Assembly: GCA_018063505.1 (NCBI GenBank)
Contig: JAGPBF010000017.1
Location: 1-36,024 of the forward strand
Direction of reading: 5' to 3'
DNA length: 36,024 nucleotides
DNA from: Rhodoferax sp.
GTDB taxonomy: Bacteria > Pseudomonadota > Gammaproteobacteria > Burkholderiales > Burkholderiaceae_C
The notes under the pieces were generated by a model that saw only the letters and a list, made by a program, of their open reading frames with translations, searched no databases and was not told where the DNA came from. Position numbers and translations under genes: made by a program. The stretch's first letter is position 1; the number at the start of each line of letters is the position of its first letter. This document shows positions 5,290-21,815 of this stretch, in pieces.

Positions 5290-6918
5290 ATGTTAGGCCT
5301 CATGCAGAACCATCCGATGATGATTTCGACGCTGATCGATTTCGCCGAACGCCACCATGGCGAGGGAGAGATCGTCTCGCGCCGCGTCGAGGGTGATATC
5401 CATCGCTGCAACTACGCGCAACTGGCCGGCCGCGCGCGCCAGGTGGCAAATGCGCTGGACCAGCTCAAGCTGGCGTTCAGCGACCGTGTGGCCACACTGG
5501 CCTGGAACGGGTACCGGCACCTGGAGCTGTATTTCGGCGTCAGCGGTTCGGGCCGGGTGCTGCATACACTCAACCCGCGCCTGCATCCGGACCAGATCGC
5601 CTGGATCGCCAATCATGCAGAAGACCAGGTCCTGTGTTTCGACATGAGCTTCCTGCCCATCATTGCTGCCATCCACAAGAAGCTGACCACGGTCAAGCAT
5701 TTCATCGCCTTGTGTGATGCCGACAAGTTGCCGGCCGACAGCGGCATCCCCGGGCTTGTCAGCTACGAGGCCTGGCTCGGCCAGCAGCCGGCGACCTATG
5801 TCTGGCCCGAGTTCGACGAGAACTCGGCCTCCAGCATGTGCTACACCAGCGGCACCACCGGCAACCCGAAAGCGGTGCTCTACAGCCACCGCTCGACGAT
5901 GCTCCATGCATTCGCCGGCGCCTTGCCCGACGCGCTGAACATGAGTGCCCGCGACTGTGTGTTGCCGGTGGTGCCGATGTTCCACGTCAACGCCTGGGGC
6001 CTGCCGTATTCGGCCGCGATGACCGGATGCAAGATGGTGTTTCCCGGGCCGGCGATGGACGGCAAGTCGATCTTCGAGCTGATTGAAAACGAGAAAGTCA
6101 CTTTTGCCGCTGGCGTGCCGACGGTCTGGCAGATGATGCTGGGGCACATGCAGGCCAACAATCTGCGCTTCTCCACGCTCAAGCGCACCGTGATCGGTGG
6201 CTCTGCCTGCCCGCCGGCCATGATCACCGCGTTCCACGACACCTATGGCGTCGAGGTGCTGCACGCATGGGGCATGACCGAGATGTCCCCATTGGGCACG
6301 GTCTGCACGCTCAAGAACAAGCACGACGCCCTGTCCGGCCCCGAGAAGATGAAGATCCGGCTCAAGCAGGGCCGCGGCATCTTCGGTGTCGACCTGAAGA
6401 TTGTCGACCCCGATGGCAAGGAGCAGCCGTGGGACGGCAAGGCGTACGGGGACCTGCTGGTCAAGGGTCCCTGGATCATCAGCGACTATTTCAAGTCGGA
6501 GGAAGGCTCTCCACTCGTCGACGGCTGGTTTCCGACCGGTGACGTCGCCACCATCGATCCGGACGGTTATATGCAGATCACCGACCGCAGCAAGGACGTG
6601 ATCAAGTCCGGCGGCGAGTGGATCAGTTCGATCGACGTCGAGAACATCGCGGTGGCACACCCCTCGGTGGCGATGGCCGCCTGCATCGGCATCAAGCATC
6701 CGAAATGGGATGAGCGCCCGATCATTGCCGTGGTCAAGAAGCCGGGACAGGAGGTCTCGCGCGAGGAACTGCTGGCGTTCTACGAAGGCAAGATCGCCAA
6801 GTGGCAGACTCCCGATGACGTTGTCTTCGTCGATGCGATTCCCTTGGGCGGAACCGGCAAGATGCAGAAGACCAAGCTGCGCGAGATACTCAAGGACTAC
6901 ACGCTGCCAGGAACCTGA
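5290..6918 (+). CDS. Acyl-CoA ligase (medium/long-chain, DmdB/FadD-like AMP-forming)
   Basis: A 542-residue adenylate-forming enzyme that makes an acyl-CoA from a carboxylic acid, ATP and CoA. Motif A3 is [10 protein letters not shown] at 185-194, A5 is [13 protein letters not shown] from 325, the hinge aspartate is Asp418 in [14 protein letters not shown], and the catalytic A10 lysine is Lys524 in [12 protein letters not shown]. The start [19 protein letters not shown] resembles the DmdB/medium-chain ligase group rather than FadD1. ATG 5290 has AGGAG upstream; the longer frame to 5092 overlaps selO and is rejected. It opens the plus-strand catabolic block and precedes the Liv transporter by 78 bases, so it probably activates an acid delivered by that transporter. 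Chain length cannot be read from sequence. Confidence 0.92.
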
Positions 6919-6996: not shown

Positions 6997-7944
6997 ATGG
7001 AGTTGTTCACGGTATCGCTGCTCAACGGCATCAGTTACGGACTGTTGCTGTTCATGTTGAGCGCCGGCCTCACGCTGATCTTCAGCATGATGGGCGTGCT
7101 CAACTTCGCCCATACCTCGTTCTACATGCTGGGTGCCTACCTGGGCTACAGCTTGGGCAACCGGTTCGGTTTCTGGCTGGCGCTGGTGCTCGCGCCGCTG
7201 GCCGTCGGCCTGCTGGGCGCTGCTTTCGAGCGGCTGGCGCTGCGCCGGGTGCACCGGCATGGCCATGTGGCCGAATTGCTGTTCACGTTCGGCCTGAGTT
7301 TCGTGGTGCTCGAACTGGTGCAACTGGTCTGGGGGCGCAGTTCGGTCGACTACCGGGTACCGCAGTTGCTCGAAGGCCCGATCGCGACCGTGTTCGGCAT
7401 CGCTTTTCCCGCCTACCGTGCCTTCATGATGCTGGTGTCGCTGGCCATGCTCGCTGCCTTGGCCTGGTTGCTGGCCCGAACCCGCACCGGTTTGCTGATC
7501 CGTGCCGCGTTGACGCACCCGCACATGGTTCAGGCGCTGGGCCATGACTTGCCGAAGATCCACATGGGCGTGTTCGGCGGTGGTTGTGCGCTGGCCGGAC
7601 TCGCTGGCGTCATCGGCGGCAATACCTATGTCACCGAACCCGGCATGGCACTGTCGGTGGGGGCGCTGGTCTTTGTCGTGGTGGTTGTCGGTGGCATCGG
7701 TTCGCTGGCCGGTGCGTTCGTTGCGTCCTTGCTGATCGGTGTTGTGCAGACCCTGGCCGTGGGCCTGGATGTTTCGCTGCTGTCCTTGCTCAACGCGCTG
7801 GGCCTGGCGAGCGCACTGGCGGCGGACACCGGTGGCGTGTGGGCCCTCAAACTCAGCCAGCTGGCGCCGGTGTTGCCGTACCTGATGATGGTGCTGATGC
7901 TGATGTTGCGACCACGGGGCCTCTTCGGTCCGCGGGAGGGCTAG
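6997..7944 (+). CDS. livH: Branched-chain-type ABC transporter permease LivH
   Basis: A 315-residue inner membrane permease. The opening MELFTVSLLNGISYGLLLFM and SAGLTLIFSMMGVLNFAHTSFYMLGAY are the diagnostic LivH segment; about eight helices follow, with GRLV-like motifs replaced by RTRTGLLIRAALTHPHMVQALGHD, the cytoplasmic loop that contacts the ATPases. The C-terminal MLRPRGLFGPREG tail is standard. LivH and LivM form the channel of high-affinity amide/branched amino acid or carboxylate importers. Only three bases separate its stop from the livM GTG. With the ligase and beta-oxidation genes around it, a carboxylic acid or amino-acid conjugate is at least as likely a substrate as leucine. 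Confidence 0.92.
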   Translation: MELFTVSLLNGISYGLLLFMLSAGLTLIFSMMGVLNFAHTSFYMLGAYLGYSLGNRFGFWLALVLAPLAVGLLGAAFERLALRRVHRHGHVAELLFTFGLSFVVLELVQLVWGRSSVDYRVPQLLEGPIATVFGIAFPAYRAFMMLVSLAMLAALAWLLARTRTGLLIRAALTHPHMVQALGHDLPKIHMGVFGGGCALAGLAGVIGGNTYVTEPGMALSVGALVFVVVVVGGIGSLAGAFVASLLIGVVQTLAVGLDVSLLSLLNALGLASALAADTGGVWALKLSQLAPVLPYLMMVLMLMLRPRGLFGPREG

Positions 7945-7947: not shown

Positions 7948-9195
7948 GTGGCACCGATGGCGGGTTGCATCCCGGTCGATGCGGGCCCATCGGCCGTGTT
8001 GCAGCGAACCGGCTGGCTGCTGTTCGGACTCGCGTGGCTGATGGCGCCATGGTTTTTCGGCGACGGGCTGGGCCTGAGCCTGCTCAGCCAGATCGGCATC
8101 GCCACCATCGTCTGCCTGAGCTACAACATCCTGCTGGGGCAGGGCGGCATGCTCAGTTTCGGCCATGCGTTGTTCTCCGGCATGGGCGCTTTCCTGGCCA
8201 TGCATACCTTGCAACGGGTTGCCGGTGGCTGGCCGCTGCCAGTGAGCCTGATACCGGTGGTCGGCGGCTTGTCGGCCCTGTTGCTGGCGCTTGTGCTGGG
8301 CTGGGTGAGCACGCGCCGCTCGGCAACACCGTTTGCGATGATCACACTGGGCCTGGGCGAACTGGCCTGGACTGCTGCATTGATGTTCCCGGCGTTTTCC
8401 GGCGGCGAGTCCGGCCTGACCGGCGACCGCACCGCAGGCGCTGCCATCGGCCGCTGGTCGCTGGGGCCGGCATTGCATCTGTATTACCTGATTGCCGCCT
8501 ACACGCTGGTGTGCACCGCGTTGATGTACGGGTTCACCCGCACGCCGCTGGGGCGACTGCTCAACGCCACGCGCGACAACGCCGAGCGGGTGGCATTCAC
8601 CGGGCACGACCCGCACATGGTGCGTTACCTGGCCTTCGCGATCGCGGCGTTTTTTGCCGGGGTGTCCGGCGGCCTGGCCGCACTGCATTTCGAGGTGGTG
8701 ACGTCGGACGTTTTTGCTGGCCAGCGCTCTGGCGCCTACCTGCTGTTCACCGTGCTCGGTGGTACCGGATTCTTTGCCGGCCCGATCGTCGGCGCTGTCG
8801 TCATGGTGTTGTCGCTGGCGCTGCTCAGCGCGCTGACACCCGCCTGGCTGCTGTACCTGGGTCTGGGATTCATGCTGGCGGTGATCTACCTGCCCGGTGG
8901 TCTGGCCAGCCTGGCTACGCACCGGTTCCGGGCGCAGCTCGCGGCACGTCTGCACCATTCACCCGGCCACTGTCTGGCACTGGCCTTGGCATGGCTGTTG
9001 ATGCTGGCCGGCCTGTCGGCGCTGGTGGAGCTGGCCTACCAATGGCATCTGCGTTCCGCCATGGGCGATGGTCTGCAGTTCCTGGGCTTGTCGCTGAGTG
9101 CGGCATCGGCGACGAGCTGGTCCGGTGCCGCCCTAGTTGCGCTGGCCGGGGCGGTGTCCAGCCACTGGCTGGTTCGGCGGAGCCGGTCGGCGTGA
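7948..9195 (+). CDS. livM: ABC transporter permease LivM with C-terminal extension
   Basis: A 415-residue permease. The core (about residues 45-325) carries the LivM block SYNILLGQGGMLSFGHALFSGMGAF, the loop TPLGRLLNATRDNAERVAFTG and the end VIYLPGGLASL. After this usual end of the family there are about 85 more residues with two hydrophobic stretches (LALALAWLLMLAGLSALVEL and a final ALVALAGAVSSHWLVRR), making the protein longer than a standard LivM of 320-360 residues. GTG 7948 is chosen because GGGAGGG lies seven bases upstream; ATG 7957 is the alternative. The stop overlaps the livG start (GTGA). It works with LivH as the membrane channel. Confidence 0.9.
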   Translation: MAPMAGCIPVDAGPSAVLQRTGWLLFGLAWLMAPWFFGDGLGLSLLSQIGIATIVCLSYNILLGQGGMLSFGHALFSGMGAFLAMHTLQRVAGGWPLPVSLIPVVGGLSALLLALVLGWVSTRRSATPFAMITLGLGELAWTAALMFPAFSGGESGLTGDRTAGAAIGRWSLGPALHLYYLIAAYTLVCTALMYGFTRTPLGRLLNATRDNAERVAFTGHDPHMVRYLAFAIAAFFAGVSGGLAALHFEVVTSDVFAGQRSGAYLLFTVLGGTGFFAGPIVGAVVMVLSLALLSALTPAWLLYLGLGFMLAVIYLPGGLASLATHRFRAQLAARLHHSPGHCLALALAWLLMLAGLSALVELAYQWHLRSAMGDGLQFLGLSLSAASATSWSGAALVALAGAVSSHWLVRRSRSA

Positions 9196-9989
9196 AAACC
9201 GCGGCGCCCGAGGTGCTGCGCTTGCGCAAGCTCGGCAAGCACTACGGCAAGACCGTGGTTCTCAAAGGCGTGGACCTCTCCGTGGCGCAGGGTGAATCGC
9301 TGGCGATCATCGGCCCGAACGGCGCCGGAAAATCGACGCTGTTCAACCTGATCAGTGGCCGCAGCGCGCCCAGCGAGGGCGAGATCTGGCTCAAGGGCAA
9401 ACGCATCGATGGACTTGCGGCGCACCGGATCAACCGGCTGGGCCTGTCGCGCAGCTTTCAGGTCAGCCACGGCTTTGCGCGCCTGAGCGTGTTCGACAAC
9501 CTGCGCTGCGCCGCCTTGTGGAGCCAGGGCCAGCGCTACGTGTTCTGGCGGCCGCTCAGCGGCATGCGCGCGCTGGCGGTGCAGGCCGGCGAGATGATGG
9601 AACGCATCGGACTGCTGGGGCGCGCCCAGGTGCTGGCCGGCGAACTGAGTTATGCGGAGCAGCGGGCGCTGGAGATCGGCATCACCGTGATCGGAGGCGC
9701 CGATGTGGTGCTGCTGGACGAGCCGACCTCGGGCATGAGCCGCAGCGAGACGCTCCATTTCACCGCACTGATCCGTGCCCTGACGCTGGGACGGACCCTG
9801 CTGACGATCGAACACGACATGGACGTGGTGTTCGGTCTGGCTGACCGTATCGCGGTGCTGGCGCAGGGTGAAATTCTGTGCGTCGACACGCCGGCGGCAG
9901 TACGTGCCAATGCACGGGTGCAACAGGCATATCTCGGAGCGCTCGACCCGGCGCCCGCCATGGGCGCGTCAGGCGGCAGCACATGCTGA
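9192..9989 (+). CDS. livG: ABC transporter ATP-binding protein LivG
   Basis: A 265-residue cytoplasmic ATPase. Walker A is GPNGAGKST (41-49), the Q-loop lies in SRSFQVSHGF, the signature reads LSYAEQRALEIG, and Walker B is DVVLLDEPTSGMS with the switch His in TIEHDMDVVFGLADR. The LSYAEQ signature and the EHDMDVVF ending are LivG-type. It starts at GTG 9192 in a 4-base overlap with livM and ends inside livF with a 7-base overlap, so the four transporter genes are translationally coupled. The C-terminal residues after LGA (about 15) are poorly conserved and arise from the overlap region. It powers the LivHM channel. Confidence 0.93.
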   Translation: MKTAAPEVLRLRKLGKHYGKTVVLKGVDLSVAQGESLAIIGPNGAGKSTLFNLISGRSAPSEGEIWLKGKRIDGLAAHRINRLGLSRSFQVSHGFARLSVFDNLRCAALWSQGQRYVFWRPLSGMRALAVQAGEMMERIGLLGRAQVLAGELSYAEQRALEIGITVIGGADVVLLDEPTSGMSRSETLHFTALIRALTLGRTLLTIEHDMDVVFGLADRIAVLAQGEILCVDTPAAVRANARVQQAYLGALDPAPAMGASGGSTC

Positions 9990-10690
9990 CAATACGCGGC
10001 CTTGGCGCCGGTTACGGTGCACGCGAGGTGCTGCACGATGTGGATGTCGACGTTGCGCCGGGAGAAATCGTGGCCGTGCTCGGACGCAACGGATCGGGGC
10101 GTTCGACGCTGGCCAAGGCCATCGCCGGTCAACTGGCATGGCGTGGCACGATGCACTGGAACCAGCAGTCCCTGACGCAGCTGCAGAGTTTTGAGATCGC
10201 CCGACTGGGAATCGGCTACGTGCCCGAGAGCCGGGATGTGTTTGGCGGTCTGACGGTGCAGCAGAACCTGACACTGGGCATCAAGCCAGGCTTGGCCACC
10301 GCAGCAAGCACCGCAGCGTGGCGTGACGAGGATGTCTATCAACTGTTCCCGGCGCTGCGGGCCCGTCGGCATGTCGATGCCGCGGTATTGTCCGGTGGCG
10401 AGCAGCAGATGCTGGCGCTGGGTCGCTGCCTGATGGGTGCGCCTTCGATGGTCATTGTCGACGAGCCGACCGAGGGCTTGGCGCCGGCACTGGTGCAACA
10501 GGTGGCGGCATGCCTGCGCATGTTGCAGCGCCGCGGCGTGGCCGTGATGCTGATGGAACAGAAAATGGCGATTGCGCTGTCCATTGCCGACCGGGTCCTG
10601 GTGATGGGGCATGGCCGCATTGTTTTCAACGGCACACCAACGCAACTGCGCGGGCGCACCGCGCTTGTGCAGGAATGGTTGCAGGTGTGA
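9983..10690 (+). CDS. livF: ABC transporter ATP-binding protein LivF (Walker A Lys replaced by Arg)
   Basis: A 235-residue partner ATPase of LivG. LivF marks are VPESRDVFGGLTVQQNL, the signature LSGGEQQMLALGR, Walker B MVIVDEPTEGLAP and the switch segment MLMEQKMAIALSIADR. Walker A reads GRNGSGRSTLAK: Arg40 stands where nearly all P-loops have lysine. The codon is CGT at 10100-10102, clearly arginine. I recall other LivF proteins of Burkholderiales with GRSTT, so this may be a lineage trait rather than a defect. The ATG at 9983 overlaps livG by seven bases. No livK-type binding protein gene follows; the next gene is more than 140 bases away and has its own regulatory region. Confidence 0.92.
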   Translation: MLTIRGLGAGYGAREVLHDVDVDVAPGEIVAVLGRNGSGRSTLAKAIAGQLAWRGTMHWNQQSLTQLQSFEIARLGIGYVPESRDVFGGLTVQQNLTLGIKPGLATAASTAAWRDEDVYQLFPALRARRHVDAAVLSGGEQQMLALGRCLMGAPSMVIVDEPTEGLAPALVQQVAACLRMLQRRGVAVMLMEQKMAIALSIADRVLVMGHGRIVFNGTPTQLRGRTALVQEWLQV

Positions 10691-10719
10691 GGGTGCAATA
10701 GGCTGCAGGCGTTCTGGAT

Positions 10720-10737
10720 TTGTCCCGATGGGGACAA
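10720..10737. repeat. Inverted repeat after livF
   Basis: TTGTCCC (10720-10726) and GGGACAA (10731-10737) form a perfect 7-bp inverted repeat around GATG, 30 bases after the livF stop. No T tract follows, so an intrinsic terminator is not supported. It could be a weak transcript-end hairpin or a second protein site upstream of the -10-like element at 10768. No function can be assigned. Confidence 0.4.
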
Positions 10738-10767
10738 GCGGCAGGTCTGTGTTTCACGCATGGCCTC

Positions 10768-10773
10768 TACAAT
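10768..10773 (+). promoter_or_regulatory. Candidate -10 element upstream of hydratase/dehydrogenase gene
   Basis: TACAAT matches five of six bases of the sigma-70 -10 consensus. It lies 64 bases before the ATG at 10837. At 16-18 bases upstream there is no recognisable -35 hexamer (GTCTGT and its neighbours), so the promoter would be weak or activator-dependent. The AT-rich run that follows contrasts with the GC-rich surroundings, which supports a start site here and a separate transcript from livHMGF. Confidence 0.45.
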
Positions 10774-10783
10774 GATTTTAAAA

Positions 10784-10797
10784 AGAACGATCGTTCT
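10784..10797. promoter_or_regulatory. 14-bp perfect palindrome, probable TetR-type operator
   Basis: AGAACGATCGTTCT is a perfect palindrome. With one mismatched pair it extends to 22 bases (10780-10801) by A/T flanks. Its centre lies about 17 bases downstream of the -10-like TACAAT, where a bound repressor would block the start site. AACGATCGTT-type cores are common among operators of TetR-family repressors controlling fatty-acid or multidrug genes. No regulator gene occurs in the window, so the partner would be encoded elsewhere. I did not notice a second exact copy while reading. Confidence 0.5.
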
Positions 10798-10836
10798 ATT
10801 TTTACCGGACAACTCTCTTTTCCCGAGGATGCAGAC

Positions 10837-12936
10837 ATGACCGCCCAATACAAAGTCCACGGCAACGTGGCCGTCATCACCATGAGCAACCCGCCGGTCA
10901 ACGGCCTGGGATTTGCGACGCGCCGCGGCATCGTCAGCGGCCTGTCGCGGGCGCTGGCCAACAAGCGGGTCAAGGCCGTGGTGATCACCGGCGCCGGCAA
11001 GGCGTTCTCGGGCGGCGCCGACATCAAGGAATTCGGTTCACCCAAGGCGGTGCAGGAGCCGAACCTGCTGAGCGTCATCCTGGCGATCGAGAATGCCGAC
11101 AAGCCCGTCGTGGCCGCACTGCATTCGGTGGCGATGGGCGGCGGACTGGAACTGGCGCTGGGTTGCCACTACCGCATTGCTGCGCCGGGCTGCAAGATCG
11201 CACTGCCGGAAGTCAAGCTCGGCCTGATTCCCGGTGCCGGCGGCACGCAGCGCCTGCCACGGGTGCTCGGTGTCGAAGTGGCGCTGAACATGATCGTCAG
11301 TGGCGAGCCGCAAAACAGCGAATTGCTGGCCAGCCTGCCGGGCCAGAAGCTGTTCGACAAGATGGCGGTCTCCGGCGAGACGCTGCTCGACGAGGCGATC
11401 GCACTGGCCAGATCGGTGGCAGCCACCCGTCCGCTGCCGCTGGTGCGCAACCTGCCATGCAAACATCCGCTGGGCGACGCCTATTTCCAGTTCGCGCGCA
11501 ACATGGTCGGCGGCATGTCGAAGAACTACCCGGCGCCGCTCAAGTGCGTCGACGCGATCGAGATCGCCACCAAGCACAAGATCGACCAGGGTCTGCCGAT
11601 GGAGCGTGAGATCTTCACCAACCTGATGTTCACGCCAGAATGCAAGGCCCTGCGCCATCTGTTCGTGGCCGAGCGCGCCACCGCCAAGATCGCCGATGTG
11701 CCTGCCGACACACCCAGGCGCGATATCGGGTCGATCGCGGTCATCGGTGCCGGCACCATGGGTGGCGGTATCTCGATGAACTTCCTCAACGCCGGCATTG
11801 CGGTCAAGATGCTGGAGATGAAGCAGGAGGCGCTGGACCGCGGCATCGCGACAATCCGCAAAAACTACGAGTCGCAGGTCAAGCGCGGCAAGCTCAAGCA
11901 GGACAAGTACGAGCAACGCATGGCGCTGTTGTCGACAACGCTCGACTACAGCGACCTCAAGGACGCCGACATGGTGATCGAGGCGGTGTTCGAGGAGATG
12001 GGTGTCAAGGAGACGGTGTTCCGCAAGCTTGACGAGGTGATGAAACCCGGCGCCATTCTGGCCAGCAACACGTCGACGCTGGATCTGGACAAGATCGCCA
12101 GCTTCACGAAGCGCCCGCAGGACGTGATCGGCACGCACTTCTTCAGCCCGGCCAACGTGATGCGCCTGCTCGAGGTCGTGCGTGGCGAGAAGACAGGCAA
12201 GGACGTGCTGGCCACCGTGATGGCGCTGGGCAAGAAGATCAAGAAGACGACCGTGGTCTCGGGCGTTTGTGATGGTTTCATCGGCAACCGCATGATCGAG
12301 CAATACAGCCGCCAGGCCGGCTTCCTGCTCGACGAAGGTTGTACACCTGCGCAGGTCGACAAGGCCATCGAGAAATTCGGCTTCGCGATGGGTCCGTTCC
12401 GCATGGGCGACCTGGCCGGCAACGATATCGGCTGGGCGATCCGCAAGCGCCGGGCTACCGAGCGCGCCGACATGAAGTACAGCCGCACGGCCGACAAACT
12501 GTGCGAACTCGGCCGCTTTGGCCAGAAGACCGGTGCCGGTTGGTACGACTACCAGGCGGGCAAGCGCGACGCGATCCCCTCCGCACTGGTCGTCAGGATG
12601 ATCGAGGACCATCGCAAGGAGATGGGCATCACGCCGCGCAAGGTGTCCGACGAGGAGATCGTCCAGCGCCTGGTGTTCTCGCTGGTCAACGAGGGCGCGC
12701 GCATTCTGGAGGACGGCATTGCGTCCAAGGCCAGCGACATCGACATGGTCTACATCACCGGATACGGCTTCCCGATCTACCGTGGTGGCCCGATGTGTTA
12801 CGCCGACCAGGTCGGCCTGTTCAACGTGGTGCAGGCGATGCAGCGCTTTGGCCGCAACCCGATGGACGACGCCGAATTCTGGACACCAGCGCCGCTGCTG
12901 CAGAAGCTGGTGTCGCAGGGCAAGAACTTCAGCTGA
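10837..12936 (+). CDS. Enoyl-CoA hydratase / 3-hydroxyacyl-CoA dehydrogenase fusion (FadB/FadJ-like)
   Basis: A 699-residue bifunctional beta-oxidation enzyme. Residues 1-190 are a crotonase domain with the two catalytic glutamates, Glu105 in GGGLELALG and Glu125 in LPEVKLGL, and the oxyanion loop FSGGADIKEFG. From about 298 a Rossmann NAD site reads IAVIGAGTMGGG. His434 in GTHFFSPANVM is the dehydrogenase catalytic residue, and CDGFIGNRM follows. Two C-terminal helical domains end with YITGYGFPIYRGGPM. It hydrates trans-2-enoyl-CoA and oxidises the 3-hydroxyacyl-CoA with NAD. ATG 10837 is preceded by GAGGA seven bases upstream; the longer frame runs through the palindromic control region and is not real. 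The thiolase partner is two genes downstream. Confidence 0.95.
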   Translation: MTAQYKVHGNVAVITMSNPPVNGLGFATRRGIVSGLSRALANKRVKAVVITGAGKAFSGGADIKEFGSPKAVQEPNLLSVILAIENADKPVVAALHSVAMGGGLELALGCHYRIAAPGCKIALPEVKLGLIPGAGGTQRLPRVLGVEVALNMIVSGEPQNSELLASLPGQKLFDKMAVSGETLLDEAIALARSVAATRPLPLVRNLPCKHPLGDAYFQFARNMVGGMSKNYPAPLKCVDAIEIATKHKIDQGLPMEREIFTNLMFTPECKALRHLFVAERATAKIADVPADTPRRDIGSIAVIGAGTMGGGISMNFLNAGIAVKMLEMKQEALDRGIATIRKNYESQVKRGKLKQDKYEQRMALLSTTLDYSDLKDADMVIEAVFEEMGVKETVFRKLDEVMKPGAILASNTSTLDLDKIASFTKRPQDVIGTHFFSPANVMRLLEVVRGEKTGKDVLATVMALGKKIKKTTVVSGVCDGFIGNRMIEQYSRQAGFLLDEGCTPAQVDKAIEKFGFAMGPFRMGDLAGNDIGWAIRKRRATERADMKYSRTADKLCELGRFGQKTGAGWYDYQAGKRDAIPSALVVRMIEDHRKEMGITPRKVSDEEIVQRLVFSLVNEGARILEDGIASKASDIDMVYITGYGFPIYRGGPMCYADQVGLFNVVQAMQRFGRNPMDDAEFWTPAPLLQKLVSQGKNFS

Positions 12937-12972
12937 CGCATCGCACCCGGACGCGACGCAGAGAGATAACCC

Positions 12973-14475
12973 ATGATCAAGCGCCTGTTGCTCGGCTTGC
13001 TGGTTCTGCTGCTGTTGCTGGCCGCGGTGCTGGCGGCCAACACCTTGCGCAAGGGTTCGCGCCAGATCGATGTGGCGCCGATTGCCGAACTGCCGGTGGA
13101 CAAGCAGGCGGCTGCCGCACATCTGTCCGAGGCGGTACAGGCACGCACGATTTCCTCGCGCACCGATCCTGCGCAGAATGCCGATCAGTTCGCGCGCCTG
13201 CAGGCGATGCTGCAGGAACGGTATCCCAAGGCCCATGCAGTCCTCAAGCGCGAAATCATCAGCGACCTGAGCCTGCTGTACACCTGGCAAGGCAGCGATC
13301 CCAAGGCCAAACCCATCATGCTGATGGCGCACCAGGACGTGGTGCCGGTATCGCCAGGCACGGAAGACAAGTGGTCGGCCGAGCCGTTCGCCGGCACGAT
13401 CCGCGACGGTTTCGTCTGGGGCCGCGGTGCCTGGGACGACAAGGGCAACCTGATCGCGCAGATGGAAGCGGTCGAGCTGCTGGCGGCCAGTGGTTACCAG
13501 CCCGAGCGCACGGTCTATCTGGCGTTCGGCGCCGATGAAGAGGTGGCGGGCGAGCGCGGGGCCGCAAAAATCGCCGCCTTGCTCAAGGAACGTGGTGTGC
13601 GGCTCGATTTCGTCATCGATGAGGGCCTGCTGATCACCGAAGGCATCATGCCCGGTCTGGCCAAGCCAACGGCCATCATCGGCGTGGCCGAAAAAGGATA
13701 CCTGTCGGTACAGGTGACGATCGACGCCGTGCCAGGCCATTCGTCGATGCCGCCGCCAGAGGGAACCAGCGCGATCGCGATGATGGCCGCTGCGCTGCAG
13801 CAGATCGACCGCAATCCGATGCCGGCGAGCATCAGCGGCGTGGCAGACGAGATGTTCGCGACGATTGCGCCCGAGATGGCCGGTTTTTCGCGGGTTGCGC
13901 TGTCCAACCTGTGGTTGTTCGGCCCGGTCGTGCGCCGGCAGCTCGAGGCCGGTGCCAGCACCAATGCGATGTTGCGCACCACCACCGCGTTGACGGTTGC
14001 GCGTGCCGGTGATGCCGACAACGTTTTGCCCGGTCAGGCCCAGGCCGTGATCAACTACCGCATGTTGCCCGGTGACGATTCGGCCACGGTCATCGCGCGG
14101 CTGAAGGGTCAGATCGCGCAAAGCCTGGGGCATGAACGCTTCACGCTGCAGGCGTTGCCGGGCGCGTCGGAGGCCTCGCCGGTGGCGTCCAGCCAGTCCG
14201 AACCGTTTCTGCTGGTCAACCGGACCGTGCGCGAGGTGTTTCCCGGAACCCTGGTGACACCCGGCCTGATGCTGGGCGGCACCGACTCGCGTTTTTTCTC
14301 CGACGTCGCCGACCAGATTTTCAAGTTCTCGCCGGTACGCGCCAAATCCGAGGATCTGGCGCGATTCCATGGTACCAACGAACGCATCTCGCTCGACAAC
14401 CTGGCCGAGTTGATCCGCTTCTACCACCGCCTGTTGACCACGGGTGCCAAGGTATCCCGAACCCCTTCGAACTAG
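12973..14475 (+). CDS. PM20D1/CPS1-like M20 metallohydrolase with N-terminal membrane anchor
   Basis: A 500-residue M20 zinc hydrolase. Residues 3-23 are one long hydrophobic helix after a basic start (MIKRLLLG), giving a signal anchor with the enzyme on the periplasmic side. Di-zinc ligands are visible: His120 and Asp122 region in MAHQDVV, Asp155 in GRGAWDDKGN, Glu189-Glu190 in GADEEVAG, Asp216 in FVIDEG, and His466 in ARFHGTNERIS. The blocks WGRG.WDDK, IGVAEKGYLSV, PGHSSMPPP and RFHGTNERI match the carboxypeptidase S/PM20D1 branch more than aminoacylase or DapE. Mammalian PM20D1 makes and hydrolyses N-fatty-acyl amino acids. It lies between the hydratase and thiolase genes, 36 bases after the first and 9 before the second, so co-transcription with beta-oxidation is very likely. 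Substrate is unproven. Confidence 0.9.
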   Translation: MIKRLLLGLLVLLLLLAAVLAANTLRKGSRQIDVAPIAELPVDKQAAAAHLSEAVQARTISSRTDPAQNADQFARLQAMLQERYPKAHAVLKREIISDLSLLYTWQGSDPKAKPIMLMAHQDVVPVSPGTEDKWSAEPFAGTIRDGFVWGRGAWDDKGNLIAQMEAVELLAASGYQPERTVYLAFGADEEVAGERGAAKIAALLKERGVRLDFVIDEGLLITEGIMPGLAKPTAIIGVAEKGYLSVQVTIDAVPGHSSMPPPEGTSAIAMMAAALQQIDRNPMPASISGVADEMFATIAPEMAGFSRVALSNLWLFGPVVRRQLEAGASTNAMLRTTTALTVARAGDADNVLPGQAQAVINYRMLPGDDSATVIARLKGQIAQSLGHERFTLQALPGASEASPVASSQSEPFLLVNRTVREVFPGTLVTPGLMLGGTDSRFFSDVADQIFKFSPVRAKSEDLARFHGTNERISLDNLAELIRFYHRLLTTGAKVSRTPSN

Positions 14476-14484
14476 GAGTCTCCC

Positions 14485-15660
14485 ATGAGCAAAGCCGTCA
14501 TTGTTTCCACCGCGCGCACCCCACTGGCCAAGAGCTGGAAAGGTGCATTCAACATGACCCACGGGGCGACGCTGGGTGGCCATGCGGTCGAACATGCCAT
14601 CAAGCGCGCCGGCATCGAGGCCGGCGAGGTCGAGGATGTCATCATGGGCTGCGCCAATCCGGAGGGCGCCACCGGCGCCAACATCGCGCGCCAGATCGCC
14701 TTGCGCGCCGGCTGCCCGGTCACCGTATCGGGCATGACGGTGAACCGTTTCTGCTCGTCCGGCCTGCAGACGATCGCGCTGGCAGCGCAGCGCATCATCG
14801 CCGGCGAGGGCGACGTCTACGTTGCCGGCGGCGTCGAAAGCATCTCCTGCGTGCAGCAGGAAATGAACCGGCATATGCTGGCCGACCCCTGGCTGGTCAA
14901 GCACAAGCCCGAGATCTACTGGAACATGTTGCAGACCGCCGAGCAGGTGGCCAAGCGCTACAGCATCGGACGCGATGCGATGGATGAATACGGTGCTGCC
15001 AGCCAGCAAAAGGCCGCAGCCGCGCGCGCCGCAGGTCTGTTCGATGCCGAGATCGCGCCGATCACCGTCACCGCCGGCGTGGCCGACAAGATCATGGGCC
15101 TGATGAGCAAGGAAGTCACGGTCAGCCAGGACGAAGGCATCCGCGAAGGAACGACCAAGGAGGGCATCAGCGGCATCAAGCCGGCAATTCCTGGTGGCGT
15201 GATCAGCGCCGGCAATGCGAGCCAGTTTTCCGACGGGGGTGGCGCGGTGGTGGTGATGGACGAGACGCTGGCCCAGAAGAAGGGACTGCAGCCGCTCGGA
15301 CGTTTCCTGGGATTTGCCGTCGCCGGCTGCGAGCCCGACGAGATGGGCATCGGCCCGGTGTTCGCAATACCCAAGGTGCTCAAGCGCCTGGGCCTGACGG
15401 TTGCGGACATCGACTTGTGGGAACTCAACGAGGCGTTTGCGGTGCAGGTGCTGTATTGCCGTGACAAGCTCGGGATTCCGGCCGATCGGCTCAATGTCAA
15501 TGGCGGCGCGATCGCCGTCGGCCATCCGTATGGCGTGAGCGGCCAGCGCCTGACCGGCCATGCGCTGATCGAAGGCAAGCGGCGCGGCGCCAGGCGGGTC
15601 GTCGTGACGATGTGCATTGGTGGCGGCATGGGTGCCGCCGGCGTGTTCGAGGTCCTGTAG
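14485..15660 (+). CDS. Acetyl-CoA acyltransferase (thiolase, FadA-like)
   Basis: A 391-residue thiolase of full family length. The acyl-accepting nucleophile is Cys90 in [12 protein letters not shown], the general base is His347 in [17 protein letters not shown], and Cys377 lies in [23 protein letters not shown] carries the conserved N-E-A-F. The reaction is cleavage of 3-ketoacyl-CoA by CoA. The GHPYGVSG loop differs from the common GHPLGASG but keeps the catalytic His. AGGAG sits six to ten bases before ATG 14485. Placed with the hydratase/dehydrogenase fusion and an acyl-CoA dehydrogenase, it most probably acts in the degradative direction. Confidence 0.95.
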
Positions 15661-15689
15661 CACCGGACAGGCAAGGGGAGAACACCACC

Positions 15690-17525
15690 GTGGCATTGCG
15701 CGAAACGCTCGATTTCCTGCTGTACCAGTGGCTGGACACGGAAAAACTGTGCGAACGCGAACGGTTTGTGGACCATTCGCGCGAGACCTTCGATGCGGTG
15801 CTCGATACCTGCGAGCGTATCGCGCGCGAGAAGTACGCTCCGTTCAACCGCCTGGTCGACACCCAGGAGCCTTATGTCGACGGCGACAGGGTCGTGCTGC
15901 CGCAAGCCACCCATGACGCCCATGCGGCCTATGTGGCCTCGGGCATGCTGGGCGCAGCGCAGGACTATGCACTGGGTGGCATGCAGCTGCCCTATACCGT
16001 CAACGCCAGTGCCAATGCATTCTTCGCGCTGGCCTCGGTCAGTATCGGCAGCCACCTGCTGACGGTTGGCAATGCCAATCTGTTGCTGGTGCACGGCACG
16101 GCGATGCAGCAGCAGGTGTTTGCCGCCAACGCGTTGTCCGGCCGCTGGGCCGGCACCATGTGCCTGAGCGAGCCGCAGGCGGGCTCCAGCCTGTCGGACA
16201 TCACCACCCGGGCCGTGCCAGACGGCGACGATGGAGACGGCGATCCACTGGGTCCGCGGTATCGGCTGACCGGCAACAAGATGTGGATTTCCTCCGGCGA
16301 GCATGAACTGACCGAGAACATCGTGCACCTGGTGCTGGCCAAGATCCCGGGACCGGACGGCCGCCTGATTGCCGGCACCCGGGGGATCTCGCTGTTCATC
16401 GTGCCCAAGAAACTGGTCGATACCGAAGGCCGGTTGACCGGCGTGCGCAACGATGTTGCCCTGGCCGGCCTGAACCACAAGCTGGGCTGGCGCGGCACGA
16501 CCAATACGCTGCTGAACTTCGGCGAAGGGCGTTATCCGGTGCAGGACCGCGCCGGGGCCGTTGGTTACCTGGTCGGCAAACCGCATGAAGGCCTGCGCTG
16601 CATGTTCCACATGATGAACGAGGCGCGTATCGGGGTGGGCACGGCTGCGACGATGCTGGGCCTGGCCGGGTACTACGCATCGCTGGAATACGCCCGCAAC
16701 CGGCCGCAGGGTCGCCCGGTCGGTGCCGGCGGCAAGGATGTCGGACAGCCGCCGGTGCCGATCATCGAACACGCCGACGTCAAGCGCATGTTGCTGGCGC
16801 AGAAAGCATATTGCGAAGGTGCGCTGGCGCTGGAGCTGTATTGCGCCCGGCTGGTCGACGAAGACCATACGGGTGCTGCTCCCGCGGCACAGGAGGCCCG
16901 GCAATTGCTGGAGATCCTGACCCCGATCGCCAAGAGTTGGCCCAGCGAATGGTGCCTGGAGGCCAATTCACTGGCGATCCAGATCCACGGCGGTTATGGC
17001 TACACCCGGGATTTCCCGGTCGAGCAATACTGGCGTGACAACCGCCTGAACATGATCCACGAGGGTACGCACGGCATTCATGCCCTGGACTTGCTCGGAC
17101 GCAAGGTGCGCATGGACGGAGCTCGCCCGTTGGCACTGCTGCTGGCGCGGATCGACGCCACAGTGGCACAGGCGGCGGCGCTGCCGGAACTGGCCGAATC
17201 CGCACAGGCATTGTCGGCCGCCTGGCAACGCATCACGGTCGCCACAGATGCGGCCTGGTCTACCGGCGAACCAACCCAGGCGCTGGCCAATGCAGTGCCC
17301 TACCTGCAGGCGTTCGGCCATGCGGTGCTGGCCTGGATCTGGCTGGACGTGGCAGTGGCAGCGCTGCGGCTGCGGACAGGGCAACGCAGCGCGATGGCAC
17401 TGGCAGGCACAATCGGCTGCATGACTTATTTCTACCAATATGAACTCGGCAAGATCGACGCCTGGCTGGCGCCGGTCCGGCAACGCGACATGACCTGTGC
17501 CCAGCTGCCGCTGGAGGCCTTCTGA
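15690..17525 (+). CDS. Acyl-CoA dehydrogenase, long (FadE-type, C-terminal extension)
   Basis: A 611-residue flavin dehydrogenase. The FAD/substrate block is MCLSEPQAGSSLSDI followed by GNKMWISSGEHELTENI; the catalytic base is Glu458 in IHEGTHGIHALDLLGRKV. The extra ~130 residues at the end place it in the 590-610 residue group with an acyl-CoA dehydrogenase C-terminal domain, larger than the 380-residue short-chain enzymes. It introduces the trans-2 double bond of an acyl-CoA and passes electrons to ETF. The start is GTG 15690 with AGGGGAG ten bases upstream; the frame extending to 15612 overlaps the thiolase. Its stop overlaps the ATG of the next small gene (TGATG). Confidence 0.95.
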   Translation: MALRETLDFLLYQWLDTEKLCERERFVDHSRETFDAVLDTCERIAREKYAPFNRLVDTQEPYVDGDRVVLPQATHDAHAAYVASGMLGAAQDYALGGMQLPYTVNASANAFFALASVSIGSHLLTVGNANLLLVHGTAMQQQVFAANALSGRWAGTMCLSEPQAGSSLSDITTRAVPDGDDGDGDPLGPRYRLTGNKMWISSGEHELTENIVHLVLAKIPGPDGRLIAGTRGISLFIVPKKLVDTEGRLTGVRNDVALAGLNHKLGWRGTTNTLLNFGEGRYPVQDRAGAVGYLVGKPHEGLRCMFHMMNEARIGVGTAATMLGLAGYYASLEYARNRPQGRPVGAGGKDVGQPPVPIIEHADVKRMLLAQKAYCEGALALELYCARLVDEDHTGAAPAAQEARQLLEILTPIAKSWPSEWCLEANSLAIQIHGGYGYTRDFPVEQYWRDNRLNMIHEGTHGIHALDLLGRKVRMDGARPLALLLARIDATVAQAAALPELAESAQALSAAWQRITVATDAAWSTGEPTQALANAVPYLQAFGHAVLAWIWLDVAVAALRLRTGQRSAMALAGTIGCMTYFYQYELGKIDAWLAPVRQRDMTCAQLPLEAF

Positions 17526-17749: not shown

Positions 17750-17796
17750 CAGAAGGCCAGATCCGAACAACCGCAGAAAACAGGAGCACAACCACC

Positions 17797-18588
17797 TTGA
17801 CCCGTACCATTCAACAACTTTTCGACCTGACCGGACGCACCGCCCTGGTGACCGGGGGTTCGCGCGGCCTTGGTTTGCAGATGGCCCAGGCATTGGGCGA
17901 GGCTGGTGCGCGCATCATGCTCAGTTCGCGCAAGGCCGAAGATCTGGAGCAGGCCACAAGCCAATTGCAGGCTGCGGGTATCGACACGCGCTGGATTGCC
18001 GCAGACTGCGCCAATGAGGTGGATATCGTCCGCCTGACGGATCAGACGCTCGATCGCATGGGCCCGATCGACATCCTGGTGAACAATGCCGGCGCAGCCT
18101 GGGGCGCGCCGGCCGAAGACTATCCGTTGGCCGCCTGGGACAAGGTGATGAACCTCAACATCCGCGGCTATTTCCTGCTGTGCCAGCAGGTGGCAAAGAA
18201 GTCCATGATCGCGCGGCGCAGCGGCCACATCATCAACGTGGCCTCGATTGCCGGACTCGGTGGCAACCCGCCCGAGATCCAGACCATCGCCTACAACACG
18301 TCCAAGGGCGCGGTGGTCAACTTCACGCGGGCGCTGGCCGCGGAGTGGGGCAAGTACAACATCACGGTGAACGCGGTTTGCCCCGGCTTTTTCCCAAGCC
18401 GGATGACGGCCGGCACCTTGCGCGAGATTGGCGAAGATGCGATGGCTGCGCATGCGCCGCTGCGCCGACTCGGCGACGATGAAGACCTCAAGGGCATCAC
18501 GCTGCTGTATGGATCCGATGCCGGCAAACATATCACCGGCCAATGGCTGGCCGTGGACGGCGGCGTGTCGATCGTGACCGGGGGCTGA
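17797..18588 (+). CDS. SDR-family oxidoreductase (3-hydroxyacyl/gluconate-5-dehydrogenase-like)
   Basis: A 263-residue classical short-chain dehydrogenase. The cofactor site is TGGSRGLGLQ (19-28), NNAGAAWG follows, Ser lies in NVASIAG, and the catalytic pair is Tyr166 and Lys170 in AYNTSKGA. ITVNAVCPGFFPS and the end ITGQWLAVDGGVSI are standard. The start is most likely TTG at 17797: AGGAG is ten bases upstream and the typical LFDLTGRTALVTG core begins soon after. The frame is open to 17746, but that segment lacks a ribosome site of its own. In this context it may reduce or oxidise a hydroxyacyl-CoA intermediate. It ends 13 bases before the hotdog thioesterase. Confidence 0.9.
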   Translation: MTRTIQQLFDLTGRTALVTGGSRGLGLQMAQALGEAGARIMLSSRKAEDLEQATSQLQAAGIDTRWIAADCANEVDIVRLTDQTLDRMGPIDILVNNAGAAWGAPAEDYPLAAWDKVMNLNIRGYFLLCQQVAKKSMIARRSGHIINVASIAGLGGNPPEIQTIAYNTSKGAVVNFTRALAAEWGKYNITVNAVCPGFFPSRMTAGTLREIGEDAMAAHAPLRRLGDDEDLKGITLLYGSDAGKHITGQWLAVDGGVSIVTGG

Positions 18589-18601
18589 TGGCCATTTCGC
18601 C

Positions 18602-19027
18602 ATGGCGCAGGAAATTCACATCCCCTTTGCTGCGCACCTGCAGTTCGACACCCGCCAAAGCGCAGGTGGTACTGCGCAGATCGCCTACGAGGCACGTCCG
18701 GAACATCTCAATTCGTTCGGCATCGTGCACGGCGGCGCCGTCATGACGCTGCTGGACGTGGTGATGGCTTCGGCCGCGCGCTCGTTGCAGCCGGCAATGG
18801 GCATGATCACGATCGAACTCAAGACCAGTTTCATGCGTCCGGCTATTGGCGCTCTGGTCGCCCATGCAGAGGTGCTGCACCAGACCCGCAAGTTGGCCTT
18901 TGTTCAGGGCCATGTCGAAAACGCAGCGGGCCTGCTGTGTGCCCATGCGACCGGAACCTTCAAATATGCCCCCCGGCCGGCAATGCCTGCCGCTGCAACC
19001 CGGGGCGACGAAAACGCAAGCGATTGA
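18602..19027 (+). CDS. PaaI-like hotdog-fold acyl-CoA thioesterase
   Basis: A 141-residue hotdog protein. The diagnostic core is SFGIVHGGAVMTLLDVVMASAA, with Asp52 as the usual catalytic acid of the PaaI/YbgC-like group, followed by ELKTSFMRPAIG, the central strand. It would release CoA from acyl- or aryl-CoA compounds that block the pathway. The start is ATG 18602, 13 bases after the SDR stop; a nearby ATG at 18588 is in another frame and gives no protein. The final 15 residues are low complexity (PAMPAAATRGDENASD). Confidence 0.88.
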   Translation: MAQEIHIPFAAHLQFDTRQSAGGTAQIAYEARPEHLNSFGIVHGGAVMTLLDVVMASAARSLQPAMGMITIELKTSFMRPAIGALVAHAEVLHQTRKLAFVQGHVENAAGLLCAHATGTFKYAPRPAMPAAATRGDENASD

Positions 19028-19126: not shown

Positions 19127-20143
19127 ATGCCAACCAATCGACAAATCATTCTCGACAACCGTCCCGCCGGCGAAGCCACTGAGAGCAATTTCAAGCTGCG
19201 CACCGCCCAGACGCCCGAGTTGCAGGACGGCCAGGTTCTGGTGCGCAACCACTATCTCAGCCTGGATCCTTACATGCGCGGTCGCATGAACGACGGCAAG
19301 AGTTATGCCCAGCCGCAGGAGCTGGGCCAGGTCATGGGCGGCGGCACGGCCGGTGAGGTGGTGGGATCGCTTTCACCCAATTACGCCATTGGTGACAAGG
19401 TGACCGGCATGGGCGGCTGGCAGGAATACAGCGTGTTCGATGCCGGCAAGCCTGGCCAACTGCGCAAGGTCGATACCACCCATGTGCCGCTCAGCCATTA
19501 CCTGGGTGCCGTCGGCATGCCCGGTGTCACTGCATGGTACGGGCTGGTCCGCATCTGCGCCCCCAAAGCAGGTGAAACCGTGGTCTGCAGCGCGGCCACC
19601 GGCGCCGTCGGAAGTGCCTTTGCGGCGCTGGCCAAGGCCCGCGGATGCCGTGTCGTCGGCATAGCCGGTGGGCCCGACAAGTGTCTTTATGCCACCGAGG
19701 AGCTGGGGTACGACGCCTGCGTCGACTACAAGCTGCATGCGAATGCGCCATCGCTGTCCAAAGCCATCAAGCAGGCCTGTCCGGACGGAATCGACGGCTA
19801 CTTCGAGAACGTCGGCGGCATGGTGCTCAACGCGGTCTTGCCGCGCATGAATGCGTTCGGGCGGATCGCGGTGTGCGGCATGATCGCCGGATACGACGGT
19901 GCGCCGGTGCCGCTGGAGCATCCCCAGCTGATCCTGATGAGCCGGCTCACGGTGCAAGGTTTCATCGTTGGTGAGCACATGGATGCCTGGCCGCCGGCCT
20001 TGAAGGAACTGGCGGAATTGGTCGGCAGTGGCAAACTGCGCCCGCGCGAGTCGCTCGCCGATGGGCTGGCAGCCGCACCAGCAGCGTTCCTGGGCTTGCT
20101 CAAGGGCAGGAACTTCGGCAAACAGCTGGTCAAGCTGGTGTAG
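19127..20143 (+). CDS. NADP-dependent MDR-family oxidoreductase (CurA/YncB-like)
   Basis: A 338-residue zinc-free medium-chain reductase. Marks are HYLSLDPYMRGRMND near residue 45, GGGTAGEVVGS, and the nucleotide site ETVVCSAATGAVGSAFAALAKARGCRVVGIAGG, then DYFENVGGMVLNAV-like residues (here GYFENVGG). No structural zinc cysteines are present. The best studied relatives (CurA, plant double-bond reductases, leukotriene B4 dehydrogenase) reduce enone double bonds with NADPH. AAGGA lies nine bases upstream of ATG 19127. In a catabolic block it could remove double bonds from unsaturated acyl chains, but it may also act in detoxification. Confidence 0.9.
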   Translation: MPTNRQIILDNRPAGEATESNFKLRTAQTPELQDGQVLVRNHYLSLDPYMRGRMNDGKSYAQPQELGQVMGGGTAGEVVGSLSPNYAIGDKVTGMGGWQEYSVFDAGKPGQLRKVDTTHVPLSHYLGAVGMPGVTAWYGLVRICAPKAGETVVCSAATGAVGSAFAALAKARGCRVVGIAGGPDKCLYATEELGYDACVDYKLHANAPSLSKAIKQACPDGIDGYFENVGGMVLNAVLPRMNAFGRIAVCGMIAGYDGAPVPLEHPQLILMSRLTVQGFIVGEHMDAWPPALKELAELVGSGKLRPRESLADGLAAAPAAFLGLLKGRNFGKQLVKLV

Positions 20144-20174: not shown

Positions 20175-21815
20175 ATGGTCACACACGATGTTTTCAACCA
20201 GCCCGCTGCGCTGGCCGACTACAACCTGTTCGAAGGCAACCGCGGATTGCTTGGCGCGCTCAGGTTCAACGCGCCGAACCTCGATACCGCTGCCTTGTCG
20301 GAACTGGGCGCAGTTTGTGGCCGCGCCGACATGCAGGCACATGCCCGGCTGGCCAATGTAGCGACGCCACAATTGCACAGCCACGACCGCTTTGGCCGGC
20401 GCGTGGACCTGGTTGAATTCCACCCGTCCTACCACGTGCTGATGGCTGCGGCCGTGGGTGCAGGCCTGCATGCCGCACCCTGGACGGCCGCTGCCGCAAG
20501 CCACGCGCACCTGCAACGAGCCGCGGGTTTCATGGTGTTCACCGAGCTCGAGCCTTCGGTGTTGTGCCCGATCTCGATGACCTACGCCGTGTTGCCTGCG
20601 CTGCGTGGCAACGACGCGGTGCTGGCGGACTGGGGGCCGGGTCTTGGCAACCGCCACTACGACCCGCGCCCGCTGTTGTGGCGCGAGAAGACCGGTCTGA
20701 CCATGGGCATGGGCATGACCGAGAAGCAGGGCGGATCGGACGTGCGCGCAAACACCACGCGGGCCAGCGCCGACGGGTCCGACCCCTGGGGCGATCGCTA
20801 TCGGGTGACCGGCCACAAGTGGTTCATGTCGGCGCCGATGTGTGATGCCTTCCTGATCCTGGCCCAGACGCCCTCGGGCCTGTCCTGCCTGTTCCTGCCG
20901 CGGGTACTGCCCGACGGCAGCCGCAATGCGATTGCGATCATGCGGCTCAAGGACAAGCTCGGCAACAAGGCCAATGCCAGTTCGGAGGTCGAATTCGCCG
21001 AAGCCACGGCCTGGCTGGTGGGCCAGGAGGGCCGTGGCGTGGCGCAGATTCTGGAGATGGGTTCGATGACCCGGCTCGATTGCGCATTGGGCACCAGCGG
21101 CCTGATGCGTCAGGCGCTGAGCCTGGCGCTGAACCATACCGGCCAACGCCAGGCGTTTGGCAAACCGCTGATAGAGCAGCCACTGATGCGCAACGTGTTG
21201 GCAGACCTGGCGCTCGAGAGCGAGGCGGCCTGCGCACTGGCACTGCGCCTGGCCAGCGCCTTCGACCGGCCGCAGGACGCGCATGAACGGGTGATGGCGC
21301 GGCTGCTTACGCCGGTCGCCAAGTTCTGGATCTGCAAACGTGGCAGCCATTTTGCCCAGGAGGCGATGGAATGCCTGGGCGGCAACGGCTACGTGGAGGA
21401 GGGCGGCGAAGGCGTGATGGCCCGTGTCTACCGGGAAATGCCGCTCAATTCGATCTGGGAAGGTGCCGGCAACATCATGGCGCTGGACCTGCTGCGTGCC
21501 TTGCGCAAATCAGAGGCAGCAGCGGCACTGGCCACCGAATTTGCGCCAGTGCGTGGCGCAAACGCCGCGCTGGACCGGCTGTGCGACGCCTTGCTGCTGC
21601 GTATCGACGGCAAGGTCGGGGAGGGCCAGGCCCGACACCTGGCCCAGGATCTGGCCTTGGCGTTGCAGGCAAGCCTGCTGCGCCAGAGTGCAACCGATGC
21701 GGTGTTCGATGCCTTCTGCGCCTCGCGCATTGCAGGACACTGGGGCCAGGCCTTCGGTACGCTTGGTGCCGGCGCCGACCTGGACGCCATCATCACCCGT
21801 GCACAACCCCGATGA
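20175..21815 (+). CDS. AidB-like acyl-CoA dehydrogenase family protein
   Basis: A 546-residue flavoprotein close in length to E. coli AidB (541). It begins HDVFNQPAALADYNLFEGN, the characteristic AidB N-terminus. FAD-binding blocks are MGMTEKQGGSDVRANTT and GHKWFMSAPMCDAFLIL, and the glutamate that acts as base in dehydrogenases is kept at Glu429 in SIWEGAGNIMALDLLRAL. AidB of E. coli binds DNA and is induced by alkylation; many homologues sit in fatty-acid clusters instead and are probably metabolic. The start ATG 20175 follows GGGGAG; the frame extending to 20028 overlaps the reductase. It lies between a reductase and a GST in the same orientation. Confidence 0.9.
   Translation: MVTHDVFNQPAALADYNLFEGNRGLLGALRFNAPNLDTAALSELGAVCGRADMQAHARLANVATPQLHSHDRFGRRVDLVEFHPSYHVLMAAAVGAGLHAAPWTAAAASHAHLQRAAGFMVFTELEPSVLCPISMTYAVLPALRGNDAVLADWGPGLGNRHYDPRPLLWREKTGLTMGMGMTEKQGGSDVRANTTRASADGSDPWGDRYRVTGHKWFMSAPMCDAFLILAQTPSGLSCLFLPRVLPDGSRNAIAIMRLKDKLGNKANASSEVEFAEATAWLVGQEGRGVAQILEMGSMTRLDCALGTSGLMRQALSLALNHTGQRQAFGKPLIEQPLMRNVLADLALESEAACALALRLASAFDRPQDAHERVMARLLTPVAKFWICKRGSHFAQEAMECLGGNGYVEEGGEGVMARVYREMPLNSIWEGAGNIMALDLLRALRKSEAAAALATEFAPVRGANAALDRLCDALLLRIDGKVGEGQARHLAQDLALALQASLLRQSATDAVFDAFCASRIAGHWGQAFGTLGAGADLDAIITRAQPR

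Follow-up and report, generated by a model that had tools for sequence, protein, structure and literature searches.

A recurrent, optional M20-family hydrolase gene in a beta-oxidation operon of Burkholderiales

Introduction

Cupriavidus necator has two fad operons, H16_A0459-A0464 and H16_A1526-A1531, and in the available portions of the reports both rose on trioleate (PMC4230905, PMC3734047). On C2-C6 acids the rise described for the A1526-A1531 operon was only slight (PMC4230905, PMC12285253), and in the accessible part of a proteome study the A1526-A1531 products mostly showed no rise on free fatty acids and fell later (PMC4870535). Two M20 enzymes are relevant to what follows. MsAA, an M20A aminoacylase from Mycolicibacterium smegmatis, accepts some lauroyl and palmitoyl amino acids according to the excerpted report (PMC10122368). 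PM20D1, the mammalian N-fatty-acyl amino acid synthase/hydrolase of M20A, is described as bidirectional in the part of the source available (PMC7145423).

Here we describe a Rhodoferax locus in which an M20 gene sits inside a beta-oxidation operon. The first-pass annotation knew of no described bacterial operon serving lipoamino acid breakdown. The host operon is in fact of a described type: the accessible text on C. necator H16_A1526-A1531 places a FadB1 with the same hydratase-dehydrogenase (ECH-3HCDH) domain order, a thiolase and an acyl-CoA dehydrogenase in one operon (PMC3734047, PMC4230905), a match that rests on the order of domains and the genes present and not on sequence comparison. 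That text mentions no M20 gene, and the relative Ralstonia has a nicotinamidase at the corresponding place. What stands of the claim concerns the hydrolase, as a search of open-licence literature, with most subscription journals outside its coverage, found no report of an M20 gene in this operon type. The host operon is thus ordinary and common and looks like the known C. necator fad operon; the new part is a recurrent, optional hydrolase.

Results

The window (the whole stretch of DNA analysed, 36,024 nucleotides of contig JAGPBF010000017.1, assembly GCA_018063505.1) carries a run of genes on its + strand. First stands an AMP-binding acyl-CoA ligase (5302..6918, the start lying between 5290 and 5302) that matches PF00501 and scores 1002.5 bits against a cut-off of 822 with NF005426, '3-(methylthio)propionyl-CoA ligase'. 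Liv-type transporter genes follow: the permeases LivH (6997..7944, PF02653) and LivM (7957..9195, PF02653, start from the gene call) and the ATPases LivG (9192..9989, PF00005 and PF12399) and LivF (9983..10690, PF00005, start from the gene call). Next come a FadB-type enoyl-CoA hydratase/3-hydroxyacyl-CoA dehydrogenase with its ECH domain first (10837..12936; PF00378 at 8-195, PF02737 at 299-474), the M20 gene (12973..14475), an acetyl-CoA C-acyltransferase (thiolase; 14485..15660, NF005494, 784.7 bits against a cut-off of 615) and an acyl-CoA dehydrogenase assigned by domain match, with a PF12806 C-terminal domain (15690..17525, start from the gene call). Beyond a 74-codon ORF the run continues with a short-chain dehydrogenase (17797..18588, start from the gene call; NF006070, 436.3 bits against 279), a 4HBT-fold thioesterase (18602..19027, PF03061), a zinc-type alcohol dehydrogenase/curcumin-reductase-like protein (19127..20143; PF16884 and PF00107, with NF058644 at 392.2 bits, under its cut-off of 440) and an AidB-like acyl-CoA dehydrogenase (20175..21815; NF008594, 566.3 bits against 545). 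The run is probably one transcript. A scan for sigma-70-like promoters in 5100-18700 found none against 2.1 expected in shuffles, a result that is weakly informative in such a genome.

The 74-codon ORF (17525-17749), between the acyl-CoA dehydrogenase and the short-chain dehydrogenase, is without a Pfam match and has relatives in 20 other loci. Upstream of the operon, on the other strand (1546-5140), lie genes for a PpiC-type rotamase, septation protein A, a SelR (MsrB) domain protein and SelO; relatives of three genes of this stretch also flank the operon in two other loci (L042, L071).

The M20 gene is an intact ORF with an ATG start on the + strand and encodes 500 amino acids. The three blocks quoted in the first-pass annotation (IGVAEKGYLSV, PGHSSMPPP, RFHGTNERIS), whose likeness to PM20D1 serves as a lead, are all present, and the spacing it gave is exact: 36 bases separate the gene from the end of FadB (12936) and 9 bases from the thiolase start (14485). 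Its assignment to the M20 hydrolases is borne out by Pfam and NCBIfam families and a conserved active site. Both Pfam domains exceed their gathering scores, Peptidase_M20 (PF01546) at 119.2 bits (3e-34) and M20_dimer (PF07687) at 63.1 bits (2.7e-17), and NF006113 (PRK08262, 'M20 family peptidase') matches over the full length at 827.9 bits against a cut-off of 503. On this score the protein is a member of NF006113, a family whose model name carries no substrate or pathway. The cut-offs of aminoacylase-1 (TIGR01880, 134.6 against 338.6 bits), DapE (TIGR01246, 79.6 against 361.8) and ArgE (TIGR01892, 85.2 against 297.7) were not reached.

An AlphaFold2 model (mean pLDDT 92.6) has a helix at residues 2-26. 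The membrane anchor claimed earlier agrees with this predicted hydrophobic N-terminal helix, which may stay as an anchor or be cleaved, and a comparably hydrophobic N-terminal stretch occurs in 125 of 130 M20 sequences of at least 470 amino acids (window included). Among solved structures, DapE enzymes (target TM-score up to 0.85) and dipeptidases come closest in fold. PDB sequence matches listed for the protein are to DapE, aminoacylase-1, dipeptidases, other M20/M28 enzymes and a few weak unrelated entries; none bears the name PM20D1 or CPS1 among the 38 listed in one search and the 7 in another.

In an alignment of 134 M20 sequences (window included) H120, D122, D155, E189, E190 and E217 are invariant (134/134), and H256 is kept in 133/134 and H466 in 133/133. 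The DEG at residues 216-218 aligns with the DEG of human aminoacylase-1 (1q7l), and the last metal ligand is therefore Glu (E217) as in that enzyme, which fits the aminoacylase/carboxypeptidase type of M20. The Glu of this motif sets specificity in M20 enzymes, and M20 dipeptidases have Asp instead at the last metal ligand. Taken together, the modelled fold and the predicted active site support a working amidohydrolase or peptidase with no named substrate. The protein could be a carboxypeptidase or dipeptidase of general use that scavenges nutrients in the periplasm, placed in a gap that tolerates inserts and gives steady expression, with no metabolic link to its neighbours. Such a role, which would suit the dipeptidases that stand with DapE among the nearest folds and is at odds with the aminoacylase-type Glu, is possible but on balance doubtful given the genomic evidence below.

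Linkage to beta-oxidation genes was surveyed in 200 genomes of the same family, with M20 relatives counted at E <= 1e-60. The gene is carried by 45 of the 200, at 46 places. Neighbours were scored against 150 listed FadB matches and 150 listed thiolase matches, drawn from 163 and 169 matching genomes respectively; among the matches listed, 25 M20 places lie between FadB and thiolase, 5 adjoin thiolase only, 1 FadB only and 15 neither. When larger regions are read, two genomes (G084, G107) gain FadB or thiolase as a neighbour and a third (G094) gains both. The revised tally is 28 of 46 places adjoining both genes and 4 adjoining thiolase only, 32 of 46 in all, with 14 elsewhere. The 32 linked places span 28 genus codes in one family. 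Conserved linkage to fadB and fadA beyond close relatives, which the first-pass annotation had named as the check on its idea, is thus present, and a separate clade shows the gene in another beta-oxidation setting (below). The M20 gene is optional, since 105 of the 150 listed FadB places have a thiolase within 300 bases downstream and nothing between. The remaining listed FadB places include 15/150 with no listed thiolase downstream and 5/150 with another insert.

For a phylogenetic view we used a wider set of loci. A contig scan kept 80 of 125 loci. Gene calling found M20 in 160 of the 170 named loci; seven of the other ten had been chosen as M20-less and three (L194, L195, L197) were dropped because the gene caller had probably missed their M20. 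The resulting 136 loci include 54 of the FadB/thiolase type. At least one contig is present twice among the 136 (as L109 and L120), and some Ralstonia loci are near-copies. On a tree of 134 rows (two sequences shorter than 380 amino acids were left out), built by a quick method and with long branches, the operonic label changes 8 times, at least 6 of these by well-supported branches, against 41.9 changes in shuffles. Judged from this tree, one large clade has long had the operonic arrangement, which was left or entered several times, the number of moves being rough. Across 45 operonic loci M20 and FadB distances correlate (Mantel r 0.53, as high in 0 of 2000 permutations), as do those of FadB and thiolase (r 0.70) and of thiolase and M20 (r 0.41). 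The M20-FadB correlation is as expected of joint inheritance, and shared species history alone could give the same. Beta-oxidation-like genes make up 129 of 190 neighbours of operonic M20 genes; because these loci had been chosen for that neighbourhood, we do not use the count as evidence.

A second context was found in a separate M20 clade of seven loci (L090, L091, L094, L095, L096, L098, L100), five of them titled Rhodocyclaceae, set apart by a branch with support 99. An enoyl-CoA hydratase lies directly downstream of M20 in all seven, with a 4-base overlap in five. Upstream genes vary. In three loci (L090, L091, L095) these are a thioesterase and a FadJ-like gene; in L096 M20 is preceded by a dehydrogenase-first FadB (843 amino acids) and a different thiolase, and followed by the separate hydratase; L094 and L100 retain the end of an L096-like thiolase, and the L098 contig begins with the M20 gene. 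Within two places of M20, 14 of 24 genes in this clade are beta-oxidation-like against 4 of 295 for 75 other M20 loci, in a comparison to whose beta-oxidation panel two of the seven loci had contributed genes, which match themselves. The L090 and L096 genomes carry a window-type FadB and thiolase together elsewhere, 109 and 144 bases apart and without M20. Since the clade loci have different neighbours and the window-type pair lies elsewhere, M20 is tied to beta-oxidation genes in two settings. This argues against a scavenging peptidase, as hitchhiking in one gap does not explain a hydratase downstream in seven of seven loci. Relatives of the clade-type hydratase (50-53% identity) were found elsewhere in 3 of 300 genomes of the order, and none of the three had an adjoining M20 or panel genes within 8-12 kb, a result that tells little either way. 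FadB and thiolase also stand together without M20 in two Acidovorax genomes, with gaps of 41 and 47.

Linkage across the wider M20 family was considered and rejected. The 75 other M20 loci are at background level, with beta-oxidation-like genes at 4/295 within two places, 8/379 at three to five and 13/399 at six or more. These non-enriched loci include Ralstonia and Acidovorax relatives at 61-67% identity, and their neighbourhoods count in favour of a scavenging peptidase. A search of the phylum found the M20 family in 26 of 398 genomes, 5 above the cut-off. There are 15 plasmid records of M20 relatives; in the three examined (Ruegeria, Vibrio, Hymenobacter) no beta-oxidation gene adjoins, and the Ruegeria plasmid has a thiolase gene and a FadB-type gene on the other strand, about 3 kb from M20.

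Other features of these loci were recorded. Close M20 relatives outside the operon occur in Ralstonia and kin (L051, L052, L053, L055, L057-L060, L062, L064, L104), several Ralstonia loci being near TauD-type or two-component genes. In Acidovorax (L065, L081, L082, L084, L086-L089) M20 lies near a gene cluster, one tested member of which (in L065) is lgt. Four of these M20 genes (L065, L084, L087, L089) are called at 751-763 codons, about 250 above the others, which is probably a start-call artefact of an open upstream frame.

The FadB/thiolase gap is a repeated insertion place in this operon type. It holds a nicotinamidase in Ralstonia (L250 3617-4249, L251 3624-4256, with a similar gap in a third genome), an HD-domain protein in four genomes (L135 4236-4817, L136 3196-3786, L137 2914-3522, L138 3357-3950) and, in L139 (2800-5714), several genes, one of them photolyase-related and on the opposite strand. 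With unrelated genes in the same gap, position alone is weak proof, and an inserted gene may have no part in beta-oxidation. The nicotinamidase and HD-domain inserts are what a scavenging peptidase lodged in a tolerant site would lead one to expect.

The transporter had been proposed to import the M20 product. The comparison took loci in which 6 kb or more of DNA precedes FadB, namely 29 of the 54 M20 loci and, as controls, the top 40 of a list of 105 M20-less operons. LivHMGF lies upstream of FadB in 23/29 operons with M20 and 33/40 without, and the ligase in 17/29 and 30/40; control DNA extends up to about 11 kb upstream against about 8 kb for M20 loci, which favours the controls for distant genes. 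On the LivHMGF counts a special link between transporter and M20 is rejected, and the importer proposal loses its particular tie to the hydrolase. LivHMGF and the ligase belong to the operon, not to M20. One locus (L035) has a Liv-type binding-protein gene between ligase and LivH (2606-3844). This gene is missing in the window, where the space is 78 bases (6919-6996), and the best match in the window's own genome (90.7% complete) is 40% identical and on another contig.

The ligase score raises the chance that M20 would cut N-acyl amino acids with short, aromatic or branched acyl groups, or another N-acylated metabolite, and that the operon would handle that acid and not long-chain fatty acids. 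On a conjugative Paraburkholderia fungorum plasmid (L240 3149-10317) a 74%-identical FadB with its thiolase stands downstream of paaABCD and a gene for a 2Fe-2S protein, a gene order that looks like recruitment to the breakdown of phenylacetate; such enzymes therefore need not mean long-chain fatty acids. The preference of MsAA for acetyl amino acids (PMC10122368, excerpted) points the same way, as does a piperine amidohydrolase of a different superfamily beside a beta-oxidation-like pathway (PMC12753220, in the portion available). Against this, the apparent C. necator counterpart, matched by domain order and gene content, is described in the available text as up on trioleate and only slightly so on C2-C6 acids (PMC4230905, PMC12285253), and we regard a short or aromatic substrate as improbable.

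M20 might instead turn over N-acyl amino acid lipids made by the cell, for example the N-acyl-ornithine core of ornithine lipids, or synthesise as PM20D1 can (bidirectional in the accessible text of PMC7145423), with beta-oxidation recycling the acid. The window's genome has three matches to PF13444, the acyltransferase family that holds OlsB. The same family occurs in 175 of 200 genomes and shows no association with M20 (39/45 carriers and 136/155 others, by hand comparison of the lists). As an indicator of an ornithine-lipid source it was set aside as too common to inform, and we give action on own lipids little credence.

Discussion

We propose, with a probability of about 0.45, that the M20 protein is an optional periplasmic amidohydrolase that would free an acyl acid for the operon. 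The enzyme would be a two-metal amidohydrolase whose N-terminal helix most likely fixes it to the inner membrane, on the outer side. Its likeliest substrate is an N-acyl amino acid or something closely similar, which would reach the periplasm and have its amide bond cut there by the anchored enzyme. The freed acid would enter the cell and be activated to its CoA ester by the ligase, and the acyl-CoA would then pass through the operon's acyl-CoA dehydrogenase, FadB and thiolase. The periplasmic orientation is inferred, as are cleavage as an amidase and not as a peptidase, an acyl group of medium or long chain, and the feeding of the operon.

The points counted for this proposal can be summarised as (i) fold and family; (ii) an active site like that of MsAA; (iii) the aminoacylase-type Glu; (iv) the linkage; (v) the FadB-M20 distance correlation; (vi) the trioleate response of the C. 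necator operons. Counted against it are (i) the commonness of M20-less operons; (ii) the unenriched other M20 loci; (iii) a gap with unrelated genes; (iv) the free-fatty-acid proteome; (v) the nearest folds, DapE and dipeptidases. Use of the gap by unrelated genes is the strongest argument for hitchhiking and is why our confidence is below one half.

A PM20D1-like function is plausible for the predicted protein, and its linkage suggests that these bacteria may feed on fatty acids tied to amino acids. A broader proposal, that Burkholderiales and Rhodocyclaceae have a dedicated N-fatty-acyl amino acid catabolism, with a periplasmic PM20D1-like hydrolase in two different fad operons, co-expressed each time with the enzymes that degrade the freed fatty acid, is speculative and we think it rather unlikely to hold in full. 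N-acyl amino acids are animal signals, kin of bacterial quorum signals and membrane lipids, and industrial surfactants. A conserved hydrolase encoded with beta-oxidation enzymes would point to the way in which common bacteria of soil and water dispose of them, and would offer a testable substrate for a family whose annotation stops at 'M20 family peptidase'; the linkage makes a specific assay possible.

The locus can be set against described systems. By analogy, the two M20 contexts recall the two C. necator fad operons. The L096 set recalls the FadB', thiolase A0462 and hydratase A0464 of H16_A0459-A0464 as given in the available text, by architecture and not by sequence, although the whole set occurs only in L096 of the seven clade loci. 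PipM, in the piperine hydrolase cluster of Rhodococcus ruber, is likewise a metal amidohydrolase accompanied by a beta-oxidation-like pathway that burns the freed acid; in the part of the report available it differs in belonging to the amidohydrolase superfamily, lacking a signal peptide and cutting a tertiary amide (PMC12753220). MsAA has the same catalytic and metal residues at similar spacing, but is 450 amino acids long and prefers acetyl amino acids, and the excerpted report mentions no link to a fad operon (PMC10122368). Mammalian PM20D1 is also an M20 metallohydrolase; it is secreted according to the accessible text (PMC7145423). Under the broader proposal, the locus would encode the bacterial equivalent of the mammalian PM20D1 system, with a purely catabolic role.
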